A stretch of DNA of 64,000 bases from Bacteroides sp. (GTDB lineage: Bacteria; Bacteroidota; Bacteroidia; Bacteroidales; Muribaculaceae). Below the pieces are notes generated by a model. That model was not told the origin of the DNA and did not search any database. It saw nothing but the letters and a program-made list of their open reading frames with translations. Positions 3,337 through 35,668 of the stretch are shown here, piece by piece. The stretch is taken from positions 62,001 to 126,000 of the forward strand of contig JAAVCF010000008.1 in the NCBI GenBank assembly GCA_014802445.1. Direction: 5' to 3'. The stretch's first letter is position 1; the number at the start of each line of letters is the position of its first letter. Position numbers and translations under genes: made by a program.

Positions 3337-3444
3337 TGCATTGAAAAGAGGGGTAAAATGTTATAAAACAATGTGAGGAGCGTGGATGTTATAGAGAAAA
3401 ACGGACATAAACGGTGCAAAATGGCCACAAAAAAAATTGTGGAT

Positions 3445-3475
3445 TTTGCATAAAGAAGATTTTTTTGTAATTTTG
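3445..3475 (+). promoter_or_regulatory. clpP promoter (-33 and -7 boxes)
   Basis: TTTG at 3445-3448 and TAATTTTG at 3468-3475 are 19 nt apart, a full match to the Bacteroidetes housekeeping promoter. The start site should be near 3480, about 24 nt before the clpP ATG. Confidence 0.8.
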
Positions 3476-3503
3476 GAATTAAATAGCAAACAATAGTCAC
3501 AAA

Positions 3504-4181
3504 ATGAACAACGACTTTCGCAACTACGCAGTGAAGCATCTGGGGATGAACGGTCTCGCACTTGACCAGTACACCTCTACAATCAACTCAAGCTATATCT
3601 CTCCTACAATCATTGAGGAACGCCAGCTCAATGTGGCTCAGATGGACGTGTTTTCACGTCTGATGATGGACCGCATCATCTTCATGAGCACCGATGTGAA
3701 CGACTACACCGCCACCGTGGTTCAGGGTCAGCTCCTTTACCTTGACTCAGTGGACCCCGGCAAGGATATCTCAATCTATCTGAATTCACCCGGCGGCTCA
3801 GTGTCGGCCGGTCTGGGCCTTTATGACACCATGCAGTTTATCAAGAGCGATGTGTCAACCATCTGCATCGGCATGGCCGCATCGATGGCTGCCGTGCTGC
3901 TCGTGGCCGGCGAGAAAGGGAAGCGCTTTGCACTTCCTCACAGCCGCGTGATGATCCATCAGCCGCTTGGCGGTGTGCAGGGTCAGGCGAGCGACATTGA
4001 AATCACCGCCCGCGAGATTCTCAAATACAAGCGCGAACTTTACGGCATCATCTCGTCACACTCCGGCCAGCCTATCGAGAAGGTGGAACGTGACGGCGAC
4101 CGTGACTTCTGGATGACCGCCGATGAGGCCAAGGCCTACGGCATGATTGACGAAGTGCTCAACCCCCGCGCAGGCAAATAA
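3504..4181 (+). CDS. clpP: ATP-dependent Clp protease proteolytic subunit
   Basis: Serine peptidase that forms the double-heptamer chamber of the ClpXP protease. The catalytic triad is visible as Ser127 (GMAASMAA), His152 (IHQPLGG) and Asp201 (GDRDFWM), with the same spacing as the E. coli enzyme. It is 225 residues, including a roughly 30-residue N-terminal extension that may be a cleaved propeptide. Its own consensus promoter lies upstream. clpX follows after only 6 nt, so the peptidase and its unfoldase are co-transcribed. Confidence 0.97.
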
Positions 4182-15207: not shown

Positions 15208-15240
15208 GGAACAAAGTTACAAAATCTTCACCACCATACA

Positions 15241-15275
15241 AAAAGAGATGCGAAGCTATTTGCTCCGCATCTCTG
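15241..15275 (-). terminator. Terminator of the starch-binding protein gene
   Basis: On the minus strand a stem of about 13 bp (AGAGATGCGGAGC with GCTTCGCATCTCT, one G-T pair) is followed by TTTTTG. It lies 26 nt after the stop at 15302. Confidence 0.85.
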
Positions 15276-17153: not shown

Positions 17154-17185
17154 CAAATATAGTTCTTTTTAGCTGGGATTACAAA
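17154..17185 (-). promoter_or_regulatory. Promoter of the starch-binding protein gene
   Basis: The minus strand has TTTG (17182-17185), 20 nt, then TATATTTG (17154-17161), a full consensus match. The leader would be about 68 nt. Confidence 0.8.
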
Positions 17186-28528: not shown

Positions 28529-30055
<1,527 letters not shown>

Positions 30056-30079: not shown

Positions 30080-30119
30080 AAAAATGCCACCGTTGCGATT
30101 GCGTGACGGTGGCATTTTT
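30080..30119 (+). terminator. guaB terminator
   Basis: The 14-bp stem AAAAATGCCACCGT / ACGGTGGCATTTTT ends in a five-T run and lies 25 nt after the guaB stop. Confidence 0.9.
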
Positions 30120-30168
30120 ATGCTTAACAACATGATTTTACGCGCATGCTCTCAAACTATGGCCATTT

Positions 30169-30200
30169 TTTGGTGGAAAGAGTTTAAGTTTCTACTTTTG
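30169..30200 (+). promoter_or_regulatory. Orphan consensus promoter
   Basis: TTTG (30169-30172), 20 nt, TACTTTTG (30193-30200): both boxes match at ideal spacing. No protein-coding frame follows, only the candidate RNA that ends at 30340. Confidence 0.7.
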
Positions 30201-30205
30201 AACAC

Positions 30206-30340
30206 GCGAAGCAAGTTAGACGCAGGGATAAGTTCAGACGAAAGTTGAACACAAAAACTCGACCGTTTTTCAAAAATATGTTTTTATAGATTGTAGATTC
30301 AATTGGGGATCATCGCGAGATGAAGCCCCATTTGTTTTTT
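30206..30340 (+). ncRNA. Candidate small RNA between guaB and the ion channel gene
   Basis: About 135 nt bounded by a full consensus promoter and an intrinsic terminator. Near the 5' end GTTCA (30230-30234) can pair with TGAAC around GACGAAAGT. The middle is A/T-rich and looks single-stranded. The 3' end is a two-part hairpin. The frames inside are trivial (ATG TTT TTA TAG). I do not recognise a named family; 6S RNA or a Bacteroides-type regulatory RNA are possibilities I cannot test. Confidence 0.55.
30304..30340 (+). terminator. Terminator of the candidate RNA
   Basis: TGGGG / CCCCA (30304-30308, 30326-30330) and TCATC / GATGA (30310-30314, 30319-30323) stack around a GCGA loop. TTTGTTTTTT follows. 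Confidence 0.75.
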
Positions 30341-30354
30341 AGAGGGGCACGATG

Positions 30355-31107
30355 TCACTCCTTCTCATCCGACGGTGTGTCAACTGCCTTGCCGGCCTTT
30401 GCCAAAGCCTGCTTTTGTGCAAGAAACAGGTCATTACGCTTCTGGATGAGAGTGGTCACATAGACAGTGAACAGAGGCAGCATCATCACCCCTAAGCATG
30501 AAAGAATAACTGAGAGCACCTGTCCGATAGGTGTCATGGCCGTGATGTTTGACCCGGTGGTGGTGGTGTCCATTGCGGCCCACCATAGAGCGTTGTAGAA
30601 GTTCTCTACTCCGGGGTTGACGGAGTGCTCCACAGAATAGAACACCATAGCTCCGAAATACACGCTGGCTACGAGCACCAACAGATAGGTCAGCACAAGC
30701 GAGGCTGCCTTGTTGGATGTGAACCAGCCCACAACAATAGCCAGCGCATATCCACCGCGTATAAGTGGGATGAAGCGCAGCAAATAGGTCACTTCTGGCG
30801 AAAAACTCCATCCATAGTGGTGGATAATGTTAAGATAAGGGATGGAGACGAGCAGGAAGGTCATGCGGGTCAGGAAATAGTGCATTTTCCTCTCCGCCAT
30901 GAAGAATTCTATAAAATAGTCAGCGAGAAAGACTATACAGATCCAAAACTGCTCGCGCATGAACCGGCGCTGCGTAAAAACCTCTTTATTGTCAAAGGTG
31001 TCAATGGAAATGCTGACCACCAGAAAGATGGACAGCCCAAGAATAATCAAATGGAGGATGTTGTAAATCACCTCCTTGCGGGTGGCAAACAATTCTCTCA
31101 AAAACAT
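30355..31107 (-). CDS. Voltage-gated-like cation channel with unusual filter
   Basis: A 250-residue membrane protein with the layout of a six-helix channel subunit. Helices lie at about 15-35, 53-70, 82-96, 118-130 (after a basic segment), 138-158 and 196-218. A pore loop lies at 170-190. ALWWAAMDTTTTGSN matches the ALWWAVVTMTTVGYGD pore signature of potassium channels. The selectivity filter is TTTGSN, not TVGYG, so potassium selectivity is doubtful. The C-terminus (220-250) is short, charged and cytoplasmic, with no regulator domain. A perfect hairpin abuts the start codon. Confidence 0.75.
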   Translation of the reverse strand: MFLRELFATRKEVIYNILHLIILGLSIFLVVSISIDTFDNKEVFTQRRFMREQFWICIVFLADYFIEFFMAERKMHYFLTRMTFLLVSIPYLNIIHHYGWSFSPEVTYLLRFIPLIRGGYALAIVVGWFTSNKAASLVLTYLLVLVASVYFGAMVFYSVEHSVNPGVENFYNALWWAAMDTTTTGSNITAMTPIGQVLSVILSCLGVMMLPLFTVYVTTLIQKRNDLFLAQKQALAKAGKAVDTPSDEKE

Positions 31108-34516: not shown

Positions 34517-35668
34517 TCAAATTGACTTGACAGCTTCTTTAATGCGGCGGAGCCCCTCTTTGAGCAAAGATTGCGGACATGCCACGTTAAGACGGATATA
34601 TCCCTCGCCTTCCGGACCATACATTGTGCCCGGATTCAGGTGGAGACCGTGACGCTTTATGAGGTCAGAAAGCTCCTGCGAGGTTATGCCGAGCGCAGTG
34701 ATGTCAATCCACAGCAGATAGGTACCTTCCAGAGGCGCCATGGTCAGCATAGGCAGTTCATCCTGCAAAAACCGCTTAACTGTCAAATAGTTCTCATAGA
34801 TGTAGCTCTTAAGGGCTTCAAGCCAGGGTGCACCCTGTTCATAAGCAGCAATCACCGCAGTGATGCCCAGAGGGTTGACATCGCAGATTTCATTGATATT
34901 GATGGCCCGGTCAATTGCGGCGCGCTCCTCGGCATCAGGGCAAACGATTATGGCGTTCTGAAGGCCAGCTATGTTAAAGGCCTTTGAGGGCGAAACGCAG
35001 GTGATGCAATCAGGGAAGAGGGTGGCCATGGGAGTGTAACGGTGACCGTCAAAGGTGAGCTCACAATGAATCTCATCCGAGACTATTTTCACACCATGGC
35101 GCTGACAGATTTCACCCACACGTTTCAGTTCGTCAACCGTCCACACACGTCCGCCGGGGTTGTGAGGATTGCAAAGCAGAAGCATGGTGACGTCTGACTC
35201 GGCGGCCTGAGCCTCTAAAGCCTCGTAGTCAATGGTGTAACCGTCAGATTCCGAGTATTTAAGCGGAGCCGCAGCCAGCTGACAGCCGTTGTTGCGGATG
35301 GAGCTGAAGAAGCAGTTGTAGACCGGAGTCATCACCAACACTTTCTCACCCTTCCTGCACAGCGCCTTGATTACGGCCGAAACAGCCGGAACCACGCCGA
35401 TTGTATAGAGAATGTGGTCACGCTCAATCTTCCAGCCATGACGCGACTCAAACCAGTTGATGATAGCCTCATAGTAACGTTCAGAAGGCTTGGTGTAGCC
35501 AAACACACCGTGATCCACACGACGACGTAAAGCATCCACAATCTCGGGTGCTGTGCGGAAGTCCATGTCGGCAACCCACATAGGCAGGACATCAGCCGAA
35601 GGTTCCTGATCCCACTTGAGGCTCATGGTGTTGTGGCGTTCAACCACTTCGTCAAAATTATAAACCAT
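34517..35668 (-). CDS. MalY/PatB family C-S lyase or aminotransferase
   Basis: PLP-dependent fold type I enzyme of 383 residues, best matching the cystathionine beta-lyase group (MalY/PatB), which cleaves carbon-sulfur bonds. The N-terminus FDEVVERHNTMSLKWD and the MWVADMDF motif are typical. CNPHNPGGRVW and SDEIHCEL are cofactor-site motifs, and the Schiff-base lysine lies in SPSKAFNIAGL. It is the last gene of a three-gene minus-strand cluster after the DUF3737 and MATE genes. The substrate could be cystathionine or another thioether. Confidence 0.88.
   Translation of the reverse strand: MVYNFDEVVERHNTMSLKWDQEPSADVLPMWVADMDFRTAPEIVDALRRRVDHGVFGYTKPSERYYEAIINWFESRHGWKIERDHILYTIGVVPAVSAVIKALCRKGEKVLVMTPVYNCFFSSIRNNGCQLAAAPLKYSESDGYTIDYEALEAQAAESDVTMLLLCNPHNPGGRVWTVDELKRVGEICQRHGVKIVSDEIHCELTFDGHRYTPMATLFPDCITCVSPSKAFNIAGLQNAIIVCPDAEERAAIDRAININEICDVNPLGITAVIAAYEQGAPWLEALKSYIYENYLTVKRFLQDELPMLTMAPLEGTYLLWIDITALGITSQELSDLIKRHGLHLNPGTMYGPEGEGYIRLNVACPQSLLKEGLRRIKEAVKSI

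Follow-up and report, generated by a model that had tools for sequence, protein, structure and literature searches.

A candidate stand-alone small RNA gene with a near-invariant AU-rich core in Muribaculaceae

The window, i.e., the whole 64 kb stretch of DNA that was analysed, harbors a candidate small RNA (sRNA) gene in the gap between guaB and an ion-channel gene; the part between the promoter boxes and the hairpin is free of genes. The predicted RNA converges on the channel gene and ends 15 nt from its stop codon. The features of the locus, in window coordinates, are as follows.

28532-30055, + strand: guaB/IMPDH (PF00478), upstream neighbor of the sRNA gap
About 30080-30119: terminator-like hairpin belonging to guaB itself
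30169-30172, + strand: -33 box TTTG, found as the exact string
30193-30200, + strand: -7 box TACTTTTG, of the Bacteroidota TAnnTTTG type, found as the exact string
30206-30340, + strand: predicted small RNA of about 135 nt, with its 5′ end placed from the -7 box
30207-30258, + strand: 5′ leader GCGAAGCAAGTT..ACGCAGGGAT, kept within the genus only and varying in length and sequence across the family
30260-30276, + strand: subfamily module, the CGACCGTTTTTCAAAAA region, a form of RACCGTTTTTTCAAAA directly 5′ of the core
30277-30298, + strand: invariant core TATGTTTTTATAGATTGTAGAT, 22 nt, AU-rich, exact in 66 other records
30288-30299, + strand: minimal constrained part AGATTGTAGATT, proposed seed, kept or nearly so in diverged homologues
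30305-30329, + strand: terminator hairpin, with outer stem GGGG/CCCC, an internal mismatch, and inner stem TCATC/GATGA
30315-30318, + strand: GNGA loop GCGA, capping the terminator hairpin
30330-30340, + strand: U-tract ATTTGTTTTTT, read in the sequence
30355-31107, - strand: Ion_trans_2 channel gene (PF07885), convergent to the sRNA

The first-pass annotation had proposed a promoter of the form TTTG-N20-TACTTTTG at 30169-30200 and ranked it among the best in the window. Both strings occur at exactly these positions (full string TTTGGTGGAAAGAGTTTAAGTTTCTACTTTTG, with a spacer of 20 nt), and the pattern is rare: TTTG-N19-21-TAnnTTTG is matched by only four strings on the two strands of the 64-kb window and by none in 10 first-order Markov copies, while Markov copies of the local gap contain such a string in 0.8% of trials. 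The other three full matches in the window are located at 3445-3475 (+), 17154-17185 (-), and 15212-15242 (-). A generic promoter/terminator scan misses the sRNA locus because it relies on the E. coli promoter consensus and on simple stems. Among 63 homologous loci, TAnnTTTG is present within 130 nt upstream in 60 (compared with 5/63 in reversed sequence and about 9% in shuffles), and in 52 of the 63 the -7 box is preceded by TTTG at a distance of 17-22 nt, which amounts to an own promoter of the kind looked for in a stand-alone sRNA gene.

The two-part hairpin with its U-tract also lies where it had been placed, the string GGGGATCATCGCGAGATGAAGCCCCATTTGTTTTTT matching 30305-30340 exactly, and the frames between promoter and terminator are as trivial as claimed, the longest inside the predicted transcript having 14 codons. 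When folded alone, 30206-30340 is only mildly better than its shuffles (z -1.7), and it is the comparative evidence, not the fold, that is decisive for reading this interval as a putative sRNA.

In the sister species (G001/L073), the corresponding gap is flanked by the same two genes, and its alignment to the window is near-identical over the interval that begins with the -7 box and ends with the terminator, and scrambled to either side of it. This footprint delimits the candidate gene independently of the motif search. When 61 genomes were searched with blastn, 12 genomes of the family, own genome included, gave matches to the region or to its core, with the AU-rich core being the best kept part. 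A scan of 84,980 species genomes for the exact 22-nt core yielded 66 other records with one locus each; core identity is true by construction in this set, whereas conservation of the flanks is not. Nearly all of these records are labelled Muribaculaceae or other Bacteroidales, with few exceptions. One cultured species, Barnesiella sp. WM24, is among those with the exact core (locus L071). Two contigs with the core (L025 and L080) bear the labels Pseudoflavonifractor and Lachnospiraceae, names that are probably wrong for these metagenome-assembled genomes. No match to the core was found in 2.9 million viral contigs.

The covariance search suggested in the first-pass annotation extended this picture. 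An initial model detected the sRNA in 85 of 297 family genomes (E 0.01), and a refined model that includes diverged members detected it in 67 of 304, representing 15 of 29 genera (E 0.001). The distribution within the family is patchy (about a quarter of genomes), and the sRNA is present practically always once per genome, as it is in the own genome. Across the order, 393 genomes yielded no more than two carriers outside the family, both of them borderline. In Rfam release 15, no family reached the gathering score anywhere in the window, and none reached even E 5 at 30100-30400 under a relaxed threshold. The neighboring genes and their orientation change between genera. No conserved reading frame was found either; the mini-frame ATG TTT TTA TAG is lost in diverged copies and is thus not a peptide.

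The hairpin is located 3′ of the core in all copies except L041, in which it is broken. Its loop is of the GNGA type with a pyrimidine-purine closing pair, and in most copies the stem is split by a mismatch, while the stem letters vary. All 12 consensus pairs have changed on both sides, and 95.2% of cells are paired, a level reached by none of 500 shuffles; sliding the partner by 1-3 columns lowers pairing to 38-58%. The same structure was predicted, unprompted, by RNAalifold. Covariation and the RNAalifold prediction point to a Rho-independent terminator under selection, another property of a stand-alone sRNA gene.

Other parts of the RNA behave differently. Predicted transcripts range from 71 to 153 nt across loci (median about 113), and the distance from the -7 box to the core varies from 12 to 94 nt, as does the leader sequence. 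It had been anticipated that boxes, hairpin, and a 5′ stem would be conserved in relatives; this applies to the promoter boxes and the hairpin but not to the 5′ stem, which, given the varying leader, is not shared across the family. The nearly unchanging part comprises about 13-22 nt, and diverged copies are reduced to about AGATTGTAGATT. In predicted transcript folds, only about half of the core is unpaired. Clade-specific modules occur just before the core, namely RACCGTTTTTTCAAAA, GATTCTAATTCTGAAA, and TTCTATTCTGATGAAA, which were observed in L018-L083 about 25 nt 5′ of the core and are perhaps second seeds that define subfamilies.

Comparison of the loci thus reveals a putative gene consisting of a Bacteroidota-type promoter, a variable leader, a near-invariant AU-rich core, and a Rho-independent terminator. 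On these comparative grounds, the small RNA gene of about 135 nt proposed in the first-pass annotation is almost certainly a real, conserved sRNA gene. Its profile is that of a stand-alone sRNA gene, since the neighbors differ, no frame is kept, and Rfam is silent. The further suggestion that its 3′ side could affect the convergent ion-channel mRNA did not hold as a conserved feature, as the flanking genes change between genera.

With regard to targets, 2.30 Mb of the 2.40-Mb own genome were covered and provided 1336 predicted translation starts. Three segments of the RNA were tested for hybridization with these starts and performed no better than 25 dinucleotide-shuffled versions of each; therefore, the targets may be few, imperfectly paired, or located elsewhere, or the core may bind a protein. 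One of the genome's second-best core matches (21/29) lies on the opposite strand in the leader of a gene for a MalY-like aminotransferase (G000:C8:96517-97668, window 34517-35668, - strand), about 5 kb downstream of the sRNA, and reaches just before the start codon. This gene was rejected as a target, as the pairing is missing in 15 related loci, and SusC-like genes were not convincing.

A complement of the core (23/24 letters) was observed in another genome, G021, at L016 1461-1590 (G021:C78 about 3403-3532). It is intergenic, between recF-like and L-serine-dehydratase-like genes, and follows a TACTTTTG box and precedes a strong hairpin with a T-run; it is possibly an antisense RNA, a sponge RNA, or an inverted remnant. 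An antisense partner was discarded as a general feature, the complement not being found in the two congeners of G021. A CRISPR/tracrRNA partner was likewise discarded, since matches to the core or to its complement are sporadic and not arranged in arrays.

Potential protein partners were also searched for, and control genomes gave matches where expected. Hfq was found in none of the 61 genomes. RRM_1 proteins were detected in 2 of 37 family genomes, compared with 16 of 24 from other families of the order, and the domain was not found in the own genome; Muribaculaceae appear to have largely lost these proteins. Given the lack of both Hfq and RRM_1 proteins, the sRNA would act alone or with some other partner. 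This raises the question of how an sRNA acts in a family apparently without Hfq and mostly without RRM proteins of the Bacteroides type.

The best explanation of the whole, held with fair confidence, is a stand-alone Muribaculaceae sRNA gene that is transcribed and acts in trans via a seed in its core. In the proposed mechanism, transcription would start near 30206 and end near 30340, and the constant core AGAUUGUAGAUU, together with UAUGUUUUUAU upstream, would serve as a seed pairing with mRNAs or another RNA. Such pairing would probably occur near start codons, as for GibS and FopS in Bacteroides, and the terminator hairpin would shield the 3′ end. Action in trans by base pairing is, on balance, probable, and differing neighbors around an intergenic gene are as expected for a trans-acting RNA. 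The long stretch that stays invariant outside the covarying hairpin may resemble a multi-target seed, or else a protein-binding site.

The latter possibility leads to an unlikely alternative, in which the core and the GNGA-capped mismatched hairpin bind an RNA-binding protein that the RNA titrates or carries, in the manner of CsrB or 6S RNA. It would account for a core that is long and invariant, for a loop and internal mismatch that are kept while the stem letters change, and for the lack of enriched pairing at mRNA starts. However, each RNA contains a single core, whereas RNAs that act by titration usually have several copies of the binding site; terminators often have GNRA-type loops, and neither Hfq nor RRM_1 domains were found in the own genome. 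A more speculative outcome, which we consider rather unlikely, is that a family-wide regulator and a new RNA-binding protein reading the core and this hairpin form a new sRNA-chaperone pair in bacteria devoid of both Hfq and the RRM proteins. The termination of the RNA 15 nt short of the stop codon of the channel gene on which it converges would suit a cis-acting element that serves a neighbor (e.g., guaB or the ion channel) as 3′ UTR, attenuator, or antisense device. This reading is highly improbable and is largely refuted by the different neighbors and orientations between genera; moreover, nearly all loci have their own promoter, and guaB has its own hairpin. Even less credible is a remnant or short MITE-like mobile repeat that spreads with promoter and terminator: patchy distribution and differing genomic positions would be consistent with it, but there is one copy per genome, the compensatory hairpin changes argue for selection on the RNA, and the viral contigs contain no match. 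The trans-acting sRNA remains the preferred reading, and its gene, being single-copy and present with a near-fixed core in roughly half of the genera sampled, offers a precise probe for RNA-seq and genetic tests. Muribaculaceae count among the principal bacteria of the mouse gut, and neither Rfam nor the literature searched yielded an sRNA specific to this family.

Known sRNAs of Bacteroides provide the closest comparison. GibS of B. thetaiotaomicron is intergenic and about 145 nt long, with seeds at its 5′ end and a PM2 promoter (PMC7366714), whereas FopS of the same species is present in 12-15 copies per genome, and both are bound by the RRM protein RbpB (PMC11697453). That the Muribaculaceae sRNA is a diverged member of this Bacteroidaceae family is improbable. 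An AU-rich conserved stretch and a terminator are shared, as is the promoter type of FopS (PMC11697453, PMC7366714), but the copy number is one, 35 of 37 family genomes lack RRM_1 proteins, and the covariance model gave no convincing matches elsewhere in the order. The RNA is best regarded as a new sRNA family of Muribaculaceae, absent from Rfam and probably distinct from GibS/FopS. Neither the multicopy state nor the RRM_1 association of FopS was found for it, and, unlike in FopS, the core directly precedes the terminator after a variable leader, in another host family. Like GibS, it has a single intergenic gene of similar length that combines a strongly conserved segment with a terminator; the arrangement is reversed, however, with the seeds of GibS located 5′ and the Muribaculaceae sRNA having a variable 5′ part and an invariant 3′ part.
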